NCBI GenBank assembly: GCA_028583405.1
Contig: CM053256.1
Span: 14,910,107-14,974,106 of the forward strand
Reading direction: 5' to 3'
DNA from: Pogonophryne albipinna
Taxonomy: Eukaryota; Chordata; Actinopteri; Perciformes; Artedidraconidae
Length of the DNA: 64,000 nucleotides
The translations under genes were made by a program, and so were the position numbers. Shown in pieces: positions 726-43,762 of the stretch (position 1 is its first letter; every line of letters begins with the position of its first letter). The notes beneath the pieces are model-generated. The model worked only from the letters and a program-made list of their open reading frames with translations, was not told the origin of the DNA and did no database searches.

Positions 726-902
726 ATATCTTCTAGGGCTGCACGGTATTGAAAAAAACTGACATCGCGATTTCCCCCCCCCCTGCGGTATATATTGCGG
801 TTTTTTTAACCTGTTAAGCCCCAAAATCCACGCGGGTACTTTACTTTTTTTTTTCACGACAGTGTCTCAGGGGATCGTAATATTTAAGAACCTATTAATG
901 TG

Positions 903-1305
903 TGTGATGCCCCTGTGGGTTCATCAGTAGAGAGGAGGTGGCTGTCCTGTCTGTGCTGTGGTGATTGGTGATTGCAGTAACTCAGGGCACCTGGGTCTGG
1001 TATCCTGCAGCTATTTAACGCCTCTCTGCTCCTCTCTGTGCTCTCTCTGCTTCTCCCTGCAGGCACACCGGTTTTGTTGAGTATATTAGGAGTTTCTTCA
1101 GTTGCTTTACTTTGTGCACTTCAACACTCTCACACACATACATGTCCATACAATCCTCACCCTGCATTTACATTACTGATACCACTGACATCCACACCTC
1201 ATACTTTACTGGATTTGATTTGTTTGTCCTAAATAAACACCTTTACCTACCCGTTGACATGTTGTGTCTCCTTTTTGTTGTGGCCTTTTGAGCCAGGTCG
1301 CAACA
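903..1305 (+). repeat. 5' LTR
   Basis: It begins TGTGATGCCCC and ends GGTCGCAACA. A TATA-like CTATTTAACG lies at 1011-1020 and an AATAAA at 1232-1237, giving a plausible U3-R-U5 layout. It is the same length as the 3' LTR, with a single difference noted. Confidence 0.93.
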
Positions 1306-1307
1306 AA

Positions 1308-1325
1308 TGGGGGCTTGTCCAACGG
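1308..1325 (+). other. Primer-binding site, tRNA-Pro-like
   Basis: TGGGGGCTTGTCCAACGG starts two bases after the LTR. The first eight bases and GTCC match the familiar proline-tRNA primer site of gammaretroviruses, with a diverged 3' half. The choice of tRNA is inference from this resemblance. Confidence 0.7.
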
Positions 1326-1874
1326 GTTATTTGTTTAAAAAGTTTGTGTAGTGCTCAGAGCACATGGTGTCATTGAGCAGCTGATTCATTGTTGTGGTCC
1401 AGCTGTGTGCTGGCTTGTCGCTGCTATTTGGGACACACATCATGTCTTTTGGGTTTCAGGAAGCTGTAGTGTTTGACATGTCGTCAGGTTTTGTGTGCCA
1501 ATCAGAAGGTAAGATGTTGCTGTTTGTTACGCTTTTGTAAAAGAGATTTTCCCCGCTAGGCTTAAGTGGCGTTTCCCCTTGGGTTGCGTCTGTTTTTTGT
1601 TTTTTTTCATAGTGTTGTGGCGACGTGGTTAGTGTCAGCTGTTTTCGGACAGCTGTCTCGGGGGCACGTCCGCGTGAGTTCTTGGTGTTACCTGCGTGCA
1701 GGTCGCTCCATAACTCCGCCGGGTTCCAGTGCGTAATTACCCACCGCAAGCCACATGAAGACTAGGTGAGATTAGGAAGATTTTGTTTCGGCAGTTAGGG
1801 GGAAATTCTCTGTTGGGTTCATTTTATGCCCATGCGTGTTGGCAGTTTAATACTTTGCTTTCTGATTGGTTATT
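1326..1874 (+). other. Untranslated leader of the LTR retrotransposon
   Basis: This is internal sequence between the primer site and the Gag start. No conserved protein was seen in any frame. It may hold the packaging signal, but nothing in the sequence shows this directly. Confidence 0.55.
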
Positions 1875-4103
1875 ATGACTTCTTTGTCAGCGTTTGTGGA
1901 TGCGCCCTCAGTGTCTTTCTTAGATGATTGCCAGAAGGCGCAGTTGGTCGAAATAGCAGAGCACTATGACATTGCTGTTGTGGGGAGCAAGCGGAAACAT
2001 GACATTAAAACTGTCATCGTGTCATCTTTGTTTGAGCAGGGGGTGTTGCAGAAGAGTGAGTCTGGTGCGGCAGGGTTCGTACCGGTAGTGGTTCAGACAG
2101 CTGGTTTGACGTTCGAGCAGCAAAAGGAGCTTTTGGCCATGCAGTTTGAACAGGAGAAGTTGCAGTTGGAGTTGAGGTTGGAGCAGGAGAAGTTGCAGTT
2201 GGAGTTGAGGTTGGAGCAGGAGAAGTTGCAGTTGGAGTTGAGGTTGGAGCAGGAGAGATTGCAGTTGGAGATGAGGGGTCAGCAGCAGGAGGTAGAGAAG
2301 CGTTTAGAGGTGGAGAAGGTGCTGGAGGTGGAAAAGATGAAATGTGAGGTGGAACATGCTAGATTACGGCTGATTGGAGAGGGAAAGCTTTCTCTGGTGG
2401 AGGATGGTTCTGATAGGTCGGCATCAGGTAGTGGCGATATTATTTCTTACTTGCGGTTAGTGCCAAAGTTCAATGAGCGTGACCCTGACATTTTTTTTAC
2501 TCTATTTGAACGCATAGCAGAGGCAAGAAACTGGTCAGATTCGGACAAAGTGCTGTTACTTCAGTGTGTACTCACTGGGCGAGCACAGGAGGCCTATTCA
2601 GCTGTTTGTGGCGAAAATGCTTTGGACTATGCCAGAGTAAAATCAGCGGTGTTAAAATCATACGAACTTGTTCCTGAAGCGTATCGTCAAAAGTTCCGAA
2701 GTTGGGTCAAGGGGGATAAGCAGACACATGTGGAGTTTATCCGTGATTTGACTTCTCATTTTCAGCGCTGGTGTGCGGCAGCAAAGGTTGACAGTTTTGA
2801 CGGTCTTTGTGAACTCATTGTATTGGAACAATTTAAAGATGTTATCCCTCAGCGTGTGGCCACTTATGTAAATGAGCAGAAACCTTCCACCGCCCTCAGA
2901 GCTGCTGAATTAGCAGATGATTTTGTGTTGACACATAAGGACAGTTTTACAGAGAAGTGGTCTAGGGGTGATTGGAGACGTGGAGAAGATGGTGGCTATT
3001 CCCGCGGTGGTGCAAAGTTCTCACCAGGCTCCTCCCATAGATTTGCAGGTCCAGGGCGATCCGAGGGCGCCAGAGTGGGCCAATGTCATTATTGCCGAGA
3101 AGAGGGTCATTGGAAGGAGCGGTGTCCGTTGCTGGAACCTGAGGGGAAGCCTCGTTCTTCATCACATGCTCCAGCCATGTGTTGTTCTGCTGTTTTGGTT
3201 AAAAAGCCGCAGGGTGTAAGATCGGGCATGGTGCCTGTTAAGAAGCTGGTTTGTGCCGACTTGGAGGTGGGTTCTGTTTTTGAGCCGTTCATAACGGAAG
3301 CCGTTGTATCGATGGTCGGTAGTGACAAGTATGTTCCGATTAAGGTGTTGCGTGACACAGCAGCTAGATACTCATTTATTGTTGAGTCAGTGTTGCCTTT
3401 TTCGTCAGAGACAGAAACAGGGGATTTTGTGCTGATGAGGGGCATGGAGATGGGCTTGATTCCTGTGCAACGTCATACAGTAGTGCTGGATTGTGAGCTG
3501 GTACGGGGAGTTGTGTCTATCGGCGTGCGTCCCGCGTTGCCACTTGATGGGGTACAGATGATTTTGGGCAACGATCTAGCTGGTAGTGCTGTGTGGGCGG
3601 GTGTGCCACCTCCTGTGGTGGTTTCCAGGCCGTTGGCATCTGTAGAGCCAGATGAGAGCGGTTTGCAATTTCCAAGTGTGTCTCCAGTTTATACTGTTAC
3701 GCGTGCGCAGAGCCGTAGGATGTCGACTGACCTACCTGTTTCGGAGTCTGGAAAATGTGGTCCAGCACGGTCCTTTGACTTTGAGATCGAGACAAAGAAG
3801 AAGGAGAAGAAAGAGAGGAAACCCTGCAAAGTGAAGAAGAGGAGGCCGAACAAGAGGAGGCCGAACAAGAGGAGGCCGAAGGAGGTCGGCGCGCCCAAGA
3901 GGCCGATGAGCGCCTACATGCTGTGGCTCAACGCCAGCCAACCCAAGGAGGAGTGGGACAGCGGCGGAGGAGGAGCGTCCTCCAGTCCTAAGAAGGAAAT
4001 TAAAAAAGCTGGAGTTAAGAAGGAGGATATTGGGTTGTCGTGGATCCCTTTGGGGCCCCATCTTAAGGGGGGGGCTGTGATGCCCCTGTGGGTTCATCAG
4101 TAG
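1875..4103 (+). CDS. Gag-protease polyprotein fused to a broken SSRP1-like HMG box
   Basis: The first ATG in this long frame is at 1875, giving 742 residues; the frame opens upstream without an ATG. In order: an N-terminal region of about 70 residues; a glutamate/glutamine/leucine-rich coiled coil (about 76-169) with four near-identical 11-residue units; a Gag capsid region with a SCAN-like helical segment (about 265-355); a zinc knuckle C404-x2-C407-x4-H412-x4-C417; and a retropepsin-like region around D494, where the usual D-T/S-G-A reads DTAA. The C-terminus changes abruptly to lysine/arginine-rich sequence and GAPKRPMSAYMLWLNAS, the start of the SSRP1 HMG box, then jumps to KEEWD and a glycine/serine/lysine tail. 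The frame ends at a TAG 28 bases inside the 3' LTR. The ORF is intact, so a Gag-like protein could be made. The DTAA motif makes protease activity doubtful, and the HMG box lacks its middle. Confidence 0.88.
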   Translation: MTSLSAFVDAPSVSFLDDCQKAQLVEIAEHYDIAVVGSKRKHDIKTVIVSSLFEQGVLQKSESGAAGFVPVVVQTAGLTFEQQKELLAMQFEQEKLQLELRLEQEKLQLELRLEQEKLQLELRLEQERLQLEMRGQQQEVEKRLEVEKVLEVEKMKCEVEHARLRLIGEGKLSLVEDGSDRSASGSGDIISYLRLVPKFNERDPDIFFTLFERIAEARNWSDSDKVLLLQCVLTGRAQEAYSAVCGENALDYARVKSAVLKSYELVPEAYRQKFRSWVKGDKQTHVEFIRDLTSHFQRWCAAAKVDSFDGLCELIVLEQFKDVIPQRVATYVNEQKPSTALRAAELADDFVLTHKDSFTEKWSRGDWRRGEDGGYSRGGAKFSPGSSHRFAGPGRSEGARVGQCHYCREEGHWKERCPLLEPEGKPRSSSHAPAMCCSAVLVKKPQGVRSGMVPVKKLVCADLEVGSVFEPFITEAVVSMVGSDKYVPIKVLRDTAARYSFIVESVLPFSSETETGDFVLMRGMEMGLIPVQRHTVVLDCELVRGVVSIGVRPALPLDGVQMILGNDLAGSAVWAGVPPPVVVSRPLASVEPDESGLQFPSVSPVYTVTRAQSRRMSTDLPVSESGKCGPARSFDFEIETKKKEKKERKPCKVKKRRPNKRRPNKRRPKEVGAPKRPMSAYMLWLNASQPKEEWDSGGGGASSSPKKEIKKAGVKKEDIGLSWIPLGPHLKGGAVMPLWVHQ
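2148..2279 (+). repeat. Four 33-bp coding repeats in the Gag coiled coil
   Basis: Four tandem 33-bp units each encode a version of EQEKLQLELRL; the last is diverged (EQERLQLEMRG). The third and second units are nearly identical at DNA level, which suggests recent slippage that lengthened the coiled coil in frame. Confidence 0.85.
3796..4035 (+). other. Captured host ssrp1 fragment inside the retrotransposon ORF
   Basis: The translated segment runs through KKKEKKERKPCK, three 15-bp repeats (RRPNK units), then GAPKRPMSAYMLWLNAS, KEEWD, GGGGASSSPKKE and a lysine-rich end. APKRPMSAYMLWLN is highly characteristic of the HMG box of SSRP1, a subunit of the FACT histone chaperone. About 30 residues between helix 1 and the KEEWD of helix 3 are missing, judged from memory of the family. 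After it, the frame resumes element-like sequence down to the polypurine tract. It occupies the place where pol would be expected. The boundaries are approximate. Confidence 0.78.
4063..4075 (+). other. Polypurine tract
   Basis: TTAAGGGGGGGGC directly precedes the 3' LTR. This is the expected position and composition for priming plus-strand DNA synthesis. Confidence 0.85.
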
Positions 4104-4478
4104 AGAGGAGGTGGCTGTCCTGTCTGTGCTGTGGTGATTGGTGATTGCAGTAACTCAGGGCACCTGGGTCTGGTGTCCTGCAGCTATTTAACGCCTCTCT
4201 GCTCCTCTCTGTGCTCTCTCTGCTTCTCCCTGCAGGCACACCGGTTTTGTTGAGTATATTAGGAGTTTCTTCAGTTGCTTTACTTTGTGCACTTCAACAC
4301 TCTCACACACATACATGTCCATACAATCCTCACCCTGCATTTACATTACTGATACCACTGACATCCACACCTCATACTTTACTGGATTTGATTTGTTTGT
4401 CCTAAATAAACACCTTTACCTACCCGTTGACATGTTGTGTCTCCTTTTTGTTGTGGCCTTTTGAGCCAGGTCGCAACA
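4076..4478 (+). repeat. 3' LTR
   Basis: It is the same length as the 5' LTR with one difference noted (G instead of A about 98 bases in). The Gag-fusion stop codon (4101-4103) lies in its first 28 bases. The flanking ATGTG duplicate is at 4479-4483. Confidence 0.93.
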
Positions 4479-4590
4479 ATGTGTTATACCAGATTAACGG
4501 AAATAATCTCAGCTAACTGACGATACAAACCATTTTTACCAAAACAAAACACAAGTCTCATAAGAAGCATCTAAATGACCCCTGAGCGGA

Positions 4591-5750
4591 AAATGCTAAC
4601 GCACTTTGGCACAGAACTCAAGATAAAAGATACCCTTATTACTTATCGTAGCTGCACATACAAGATATCCGATTAAAGCTGAGGTTCCACAGATTATTTA
4701 GGTATATAGTATCATCACTGAGTGATCTGAACTCGGACAGGGGAAGCAAACACAGACATCACAACACGTACCTTTACGTAGCTTCTAGGGGAGATGTCTC
4801 ACCGTAGCTGTCAATCTGATCAAAAGACGTGTTCAATGGCATTAAAACGAGAAAGAAAAAACGCGGCTGAATCGGTTAATCCATAGGTTTTTAACGTCTC
4901 TGTATAAAAAAATGATTTAATTTATAATCCATAATTCCATTTTTATGTAAATATCGCAGAGCAAAAGTTAGCTGCTAATGGTAGCCACCAGAGTGGCTGC
5001 TGCTTCCGGTCTTGGCATGTTGCTTACCCTCAAATAAGGGGGTTCATCTGTGAATGAAGAAGAGTGGTAAGGGATCCAAGAGATTAAACGTATTTGTTAC
5101 GACCCATTAAACTATAGGAAGCTTCTTGGAAGTAAATCTTCATTCTCTCCGGTATTGTCCTCCTGTGCCTCGCTCATTTTTTACCAGTGTTTTGATGGTC
5201 TGCAAACTAGCGGGGCGGGGCCTGCTGTGATCTGATCAAGAATGATTGTGATTGGTAGTTTGCTGTGCATGCAGGGGAAGTTCTACACACACCAACACAT
5301 AAACAAATAAGGAGTGAGAGTGACGCGTAGCCAAAACCGGAAGCTGCATACACTCTGGTGGCTACCATTAGCAGCTAACTTTTGTGCTCCGATTTTTACA
5401 TAAAAATTGAATTATGGATTATAAACAATTGCTTCAAAGCCACAGATACATTATCAACCTATGGATCAACCGATTCAGCCGCGTTTTTTCTTTCTCGTTT
5501 TAATGCCATTGAACACGTCTTTTGATCAGATTGACAGCTACGGTGAGACGATCTCCAGTAAAAGCTCCGTAAAAGGTACGTGTTGTGATGTCTGTGTTTG
5601 CTTTCCCTGTTGCGAGATGGGATCGCTTAGATACTATACTTAAATAATCTGTGGAGTCTCAGCTTTAATCGGATATATTGTATGTGCAGTTTCGATAAGT
5701 AATAAGGGTATCTTTATTTTGAATTCTGTGCTAAAGTGCGTTAGCATTTT
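4591..5750. repeat. Large foldback (inverted repeat) inside the hAT element
   Basis: The left arm (about 4591-5011) and right arm (about 5335-5750) are reverse complements over roughly 415 bases, with some indels. Matching landmarks are GTTAGCTGCTAATGGTAGCC on the left and GGCTACCATTAGCAGCTAAC on the right. The spacer is about 320 bases. Transcripts through it could form a long hairpin. Confidence 0.8.
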
Positions 5751-5856
5751 AAAAAAAAAATGAATAAAACCGCACGTCCCTGCGGTGTGAATACCGCGCA
5801 TGCGCATACCGCGGTTATCGCCATGACACGGTATATCGTTCAGCCCTAATATCTTC

Positions 5857-7677: not shown

Positions 7678-43762
<36,085 letters not shown>

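Follow-up and report, generated by a model that had tools for sequence, protein, structure and literature searches.

A Gypsy-type retrotransposon family of Pogonophryne albipinna with a captured SSRP1 tail in place of pol

Architecture of the element

The DNA analyzed here (the window) is a 64,000-nucleotide stretch of contig CM053256.1 from Pogonophryne albipinna. It contains a complete LTR element at positions 903–4478, flanked by identical target site duplications (TSDs; ATGTG) at 898–902 and 4479–4483 and bounded by TG...CA LTRs at 903–1305 and 4076–4478, both on the forward strand, as are the internal parts of the element. The element is young, its two LTRs differing at 1 of 403 sites. 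By eye, a primer binding site (PBS)-like stretch, TGGGGGCTTGTCC, which presumably resembles tRNA-Pro, directly follows the 5′ LTR at 1308–1320, and a polypurine tract (PPT), AAGGGGGGGG, precedes the 3′ LTR at 4065–4074.

A single frame is uninterrupted from 1866 to 4103, with an ATG at 1875. The first-pass annotation of this DNA had proposed one continuous frame passing from Gag into an SSRP1-like tail and back into element sequence before the PPT. The frame and the return to element sequence are both borne out, with the correction that the stop actually lies within the 3′ LTR. The encoded protein begins with a repeat-rich coiled coil, followed by a SCAN-type Gag (SCAN domain at 2673–2942; Pfam PF02023, E = 1.6e-18), a CCHC zinc knuckle (3081–3128; E = 0.0042, below the Pfam cut-off), a protease-like region with spacer (3200–3758) and the SSRP1-derived tail. 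The protease-like region is ∼90% like that of pol-bearing relatives, and its label comes from this relatedness and a DTA motif, Pfam having given no match there. We found no Pfam match to integrase, reverse transcriptase (RT) or RNase H in the four window pieces scanned. The SCAN-related Gag, TG...CA LTRs, 5-bp TSD, PBS and PPT (the last two by eye) are features of Gmr1-like Ty3/Gypsy elements, and an excerpt of PMC3424704 links SCAN-related Gag to this group.

Several minor features were also observed. The protease-like motif at 3354–3362 reads DTA, as it does in the close pol-bearing relative P0121; the usual protease motif is DTG, which is present in the more distant relatives P0124 and P0131. 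Within Gag, 33-bp tandem repeats at 2106–2270 encode the coiled-coil unit LEQEKLQLELR, and their number seemingly differs between copies. The LTR element is nested in a hairpin element (734–5848) with ends TAGGGCTG/CAGCCCTA, an 8-bp duplication, ATATCTTC, and inverted arms of 430 bp that are 87% alike. We take the hairpin element to be hAT-like from its 8-bp duplication.

The tail is derived from spliced ssrp1a mRNA

The best PDB match of the tail is SSRP1 (E = 4.3e-07). The first-pass annotation had placed an SSRP1 fragment at 3796–4035. Its SSRP1 origin stands, but its limits do not: the peptide RSFDFEIETK, upstream of that interval, also matches SSRP1 in the PDB search, and host-derived sequence extends from about 3763 to 4027. 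The host gene, ssrp1a, is located in the same genome at about G000:C3:26387962–26400473. A comparison of the tail with host ssrp1 DNA, as the annotation had suggested, gave matches of 98.7% over 77 nt (E = 1.5e-34), 94.7% over 38 nt and 96.9% over 32 nt, together with further matches, so the similarity goes beyond low-complexity lysine.

At the DNA level the tail follows five ssrp1 exons: part of A, then E, F, G and H. Introns are absent, and the E/F (3833/3834), F/G (3950/3951) and G/H (3994/3995) joins fall exactly at splice sites; a spliced ssrp1 mRNA was therefore the source. The ssrp1a mRNA was captured in frame with Gag, in agreement with the initial claim of an in-frame host fragment.

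The captured part is a mosaic with four junctions and no HMG core. At J1 (3759–3770), the element passes into ssrp1 exon A with an overlap of ∼2–3 nt, giving segment 1 (RSFDFEIETK; 3763–3797, host gene 9029–9066). J2 (3792–3833) is a jump within the ssrp1 mRNA that shares the 6-nt sequence ACAAAG and continues into exon E. Exon F (3834–3939) contributes an expanded 15-nt basic repeat (KRRPN/K) and the HMG start APKRPMSAYMLWLNAS. At J3 (3940–3950), where the HMG core is absent, a filler of ∼4 nt takes the place of an overlap and the sequence lands in the final 7 nt of exon F. Exon G (3951–3994), which carries a later 57-nt in-frame deletion, and exon H (3995–4027) complete the host sequence. 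J4, with a GGA overlap, opens the segment 4025–4075, which includes the PPT; this segment is 3′ UTR in pol-bearing relatives and is translated as protein in the window element. The GGA at which the element resumes lies in that 3′ UTR, downstream of the relatives' RNase-H-like DALSR end and stop codon. Ordinary exon skipping as an explanation of J2 and J3 is ruled out because both breaks fall inside exons.

These junctions recur among 104 tail copies: J3 in 104 (pattern with ≤5 errors), J2 in 102, and J1 and J4 in 101 each. Fuzzy counts of "short" and "long" J3 forms in the same copies overlap (98 and 17) and were set aside. The HMG_box Pfam match is below cut-off and restricted to model positions 1–18 of 69, and with the core skipped at J3 in 104/104 copies a complete three-helix HMG fold is not found, consistent with the earlier description of a box that lacks its center.

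The tail occupies the position of pol

A protease–integrase query identified at least 41 close relatives among 118 matches, with 86–92% identity across 290 or more of the 343 residues; because the 118 are the scored subset of 4011 first-look candidates, 41 is a lower bound. Nine of the 41 relatives listed have stop-free frames of 1500–1622 aa. In Gmr1-like elements, the integrase lies upstream of RT. Integrase follows protease in the relatives P0121 and P0131, and the frame terminates in an RNase-H-like DALSR end. In all four loci read across the protease boundary, on both strands (L052–L055), likeness to the window stops at ∼3755–3764 and the frame continues into integrase-side sequence. At four 3′ ends (L056–L059), the RNase-H-like end leads directly into the 3′ UTR, with no tail. 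The SSRP1 mosaic thus sits where integrase, RT and RNase H would be expected, since the relatives read run from protease into integrase-side sequence without a tail.

The LTRs of the chimera and the relatives are ∼87–92% alike over their shared parts, so that none of the relatives read here is the direct parent of the copy in the window. The backbone distance between window-type chimeras and four relatives is 7–12%, which would leave room for a closer, unseen helper.

Two loci were noted in passing. L052 is a second polymerase-poor derivative, in which a short RNase H end with the 3′ LTR has been attached to the Gag–protease–integrase side; it has stops and an internal deletion, and carries no SSRP1. 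A 2356-aa frame at C7:36635148 was rejected as a pol-bearing tail copy: upstream, the frame extends into a run of N, and an LTR follows the tail.

Copy number, age and distribution

Counting copies of the junction, another check that had been proposed, gave 288 occurrences of J1 genome-wide (35-nt pattern, ≤3 mismatches) and none of a reversed-pattern control. J3 occurs in 257 short-form and 47 long-form copies. The chimera family comprises about 290–300 copies in the P. albipinna genome, where Gypsy and hAT account for most recent TE copies according to an excerpt of PMC10716251. All 150 scored matches of a protein search are stop-free, in a set that is part of 528 first-look candidates and is biased to intact tails. 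Measurable LTR pairs were obtained from 28 of 39 sources. Twelve of these 28 pairs are free of substitutions (a few of them with LTRs of unequal length), the largest K2P distance is 0.0275, and 23 of the 28 copies have a perfect 5-bp TSD.

The fusion is also present, with a longer tail, in the Gymnodraco proteins P0002 and P0003, and the longer form occurs in some P. albipinna copies as well. KKRRPKEVGAPKRP is common to the tail and two icefish ssrp1 proteins (P0004 and P0006), and is absent in Eleginops, Cottoperca and the three other fishes compared; the capture is therefore younger than the split from Eleginops. Long-tail copies lie in local clusters (C14:6.80–7.08 Mb, C2:0.13–0.49 Mb, C4:38.66–38.91 Mb, and on C9 and C11), as if an old copy had been carried in segmental duplications; a search for LTRs in L026 gave none.

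Recombination with the pol-bearing relative

We typed 37 copies at 124 diagnostic sites at which four pol-bearing relatives share an allele that differs from that of the window. In fifteen copies, the alleles are those of the relatives as far as about 3039 and those of the chimera from there on. Thirteen of these mosaics cover the gag blocks from 2290, with up to 50 of 50 sites relative-type; the remaining two (L002 and L003) have an internal deletion and relative alleles at 7/7 sites. Two further copies of the 37 (L023 and L028) switch near 3600 from the relatives' alleles to the chimera tail, L022 represents a third mosaic type, and L014 and L027 are mixed at diagnostic sites. The tail is present on at least three backbones. 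These patterns show recombination mosaics between the chimera and its pol-bearing relative, and along with the host sequence in place of pol and the ∼300 copies, they go beyond what the first-pass annotation had described. Mosaics of this kind would be expected if both RNAs enter one particle. We infer that a pol-bearing relative serves as helper, with the mosaics as the best evidence.

Selection on Gag and on the tail

The use of the tail was assessed from amino-acid-changing (N) and synonymous (S) variants, in groups picked after the mosaics were seen and with small counts. Variants present in two or more of 17 non-recombinant copies give N:S ratios of 6:12 in gag (2290–3036), 0:4 in the knuckle–protease region and 12:4 in the tail. 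A comparison of the tail with gag and protease combined gives Fisher P = 0.0076. Singletons in the same copies are 19 N plus 2 stops to 11 S in gag, 25 plus 1 to 11 in knuckle–protease and 9:4 in the tail. The few shared variants of 13 recombinants are 1:3, 0:3 and 2:2, respectively. Pooling the 30 copies gives 24 plus 1 stop to 44 in gag, 2:7 in knuckle–protease and 16:6 in the tail; at a threshold of 5 copies, the pooled knuckle–protease ratio is 2:1, with no constraint visible. A first count on all 37 copies, recombinants included, had the same direction. Across all 104 tails (threshold 3), the basic half has 22:5 and the other half 20:8 plus a stop. Gag and protease thus appear to be kept under purifying selection, as judged from these small counts, and the SSRP1 tail appears relaxed, which makes it look like a passenger rather than a working chromatin tether.

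Tail length was compared in a non-random sample of 40 tails (36 with a 3′ end), comprising exact J1 matches outside the copies already in hand, taken from the leading 101 entries of the 288. In 25 of the 36, the length matches that of the window modulo 3, and in 11 it does not. The in-frame share exceeds one third, as would be expected for young copies and also if an open tail were favored. Of 11 rows inspected for an 8-nt deletion that puts the HMG part out of frame, 8 have it, and frameshifted copies have therefore multiplied too. In-frame indels were dropped as a sign of selection, many of them lying in triplet or 15-nt repeats.

The tail might instead be functional, acting in nuclear entry of Gag or its RNA or in binding chromatin or RNA, and have driven the spread of the family. 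In its fullest form, this idea holds that a tail module gave a polymerase-less Gag element an edge, that the chimera outgrew its helper, that the cassette recombined onto new backbones and that basicity was selected, a sequence of events that we find doubtful. The tail is strongly basic (29 K+R versus 12 D+E in 92 residues), its KRRPN/K unit, single in the host gene, has expanded to about five in certain copies, it is found on at least three backbones, and tail-bearing copies number ∼290–300 versus at least 41 close pol-bearing ones. Against a function stand the mostly amino-acid-changing shared variants (12:4), the HMG-frameshifting deletion in 8/11 rows and the missing HMG core in the tails read. 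A functional tail that drove the spread is therefore unlikely, although a role that needs positive charge alone may remain. The first-pass annotation had offered chromatin tether and passive remnant as alternatives, and the data favor the remnant over the tether.

DISCUSSION

With a probability of roughly 0.78, we favor an account in which template switching captured ssrp1a mRNA, a pol-bearing relative copies the product in trans and the tail is a passenger. A pol-bearing, SCAN-Gag (Gmr1-like) Gypsy element would have taken spliced ssrp1a mRNA into its particles. While copying element RNA, the reverse transcriptase would have switched to the ssrp1a mRNA, made two jumps inside it and gone back to the element 3′ UTR, yielding a Gag–protease–SSRP1 fusion that lacks integrase, RT and RNase H. 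This defective chimera would then be copied and integrated in trans by a pol-bearing relative, with which it would recombine on co-packaging of the two RNAs. The Gag and protease of the chimera would remain functional and the SSRP1 tail would be mainly a passenger. The intron-free exact joins, the position of the host sequence between LTRs and the 2–6 nt overlaps at three joins are traits of LTR-mediated retroposition, and we infer that template switching was the act of capture. The relative read here is the putative source of enzymes, and the family probably reached ∼300 copies with the borrowed enzymes of an intact relative.

An origin as a LINE-made processed ssrp1 pseudogene inserted into an element copy, or by DNA-repair joining of element and host DNA, is improbable. 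Retrocopies are common in vertebrates, and short-overlap internal deletions are also compatible with end joining. However, both ends of the host segment lie inside coding sequence, its edges have neither poly(A) nor a flanking duplication, and integrase, RT and RNase H are missing between the two joins. The first-pass annotation had itself raised the objection that the tail could be an old, ancestral part of the element family, and ∼300 copies together with its presence in Gymnodraco proteins might suggest this. This reading is rejected as highly improbable: the pol-bearing relatives read have no tail, passing from protease to the integrase side or ending tail-free, and KKRRPKEVGAPKRP is in two icefish ssrp1 proteins and not in Eleginops, Cottoperca or three other fishes. 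Chance or low-complexity lysine similarity, suggested by the lysine-rich repeat that makes up part of the tail, is refuted by a near-identical DNA match away from the lysine-rich stretch (98.7% over 77 nt, E = 1.5e-34) and by the three joins that coincide exactly with exon boundaries.

By analogy with the systems compared below, the family would behave as a helper-dependent transducing retroelement that carries a Gag fusion. The traits of a helper-moved transducing element are found here: no polymerase or integrase of its own, a long-frame pol-bearing relative, and recombination with that relative. Acute transforming retroviruses have a Gag–host fusion, have lost their polymerase, require a helper and recombine with it. 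The likeness lies in the Gag–host fusion, the polymerase loss and the helper recombination, with the need for a helper being probable in the present case; unlike those viruses, the window copy shows no env, no sign of infection and no oncogene.

Maize Bs1, in excerpts of PMC5408686 and PMC13317346, is an LTR element that likewise has host mRNA pieces in a hybrid frame; it is named a low-copy-number element in an excerpt of PMC2774510. Bs1 is a plant element with segments of three host genes and low copy number, whereas the present family is from a vertebrate, with one host gene and ∼300 copies. In metazoan LTR-mediated retroposition (Tan et al. 2016, as reviewed in an excerpt of PMC5408686), template switching likewise takes place at short similarities shared by LTR element RNA and cellular mRNA; the present case differs in being an amplified family with a fusion to Gag and with recombination involving a pol-bearing relative. 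Crocodilian ERVs with nectin3 or KIT-ligand are also vertebrate LTR elements that captured host mRNA and were amplified. An excerpt of PMC4299795 describes nectin3 in place of env, six insertions and captured frames under purifying selection. Those elements are retroviruses with env replaced and constrained frames, whereas this one is Gypsy-type, with pol lost and a relaxed tail. The mechanism is thus already known from Bs1, LTR-mediated retroposition and ERV capture. The SSRP1 family itself was not found in print: in the open-licence literature, we found no SSRP1-carrying notothenioid Gypsy element, SSRP1 chimeric retrogene or host capture by a Pogonophryne retrotransposon.

In this vertebrate family a single mRNA capture can be traced from the parent gene through its junctions to an expanding non-autonomous family and on to recombinants with a pol-bearing relative. 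The family provides a natural setting in which to study the frequency of host mRNA packaging by Gypsy-type elements, the dependence of a defective Gag element on Gag supplied in cis, and the fate of captured host peptides, which may be put to use or simply carried along. It is also a warning that SSRP1-like gene models of Antarctic fishes can be transposon proteins. P0122, a fusion protein of 675 aa, has the basic part of SSRP1 and lacks the HMG start; this protein, and P0161 in Dissostichus, hint at further variants.
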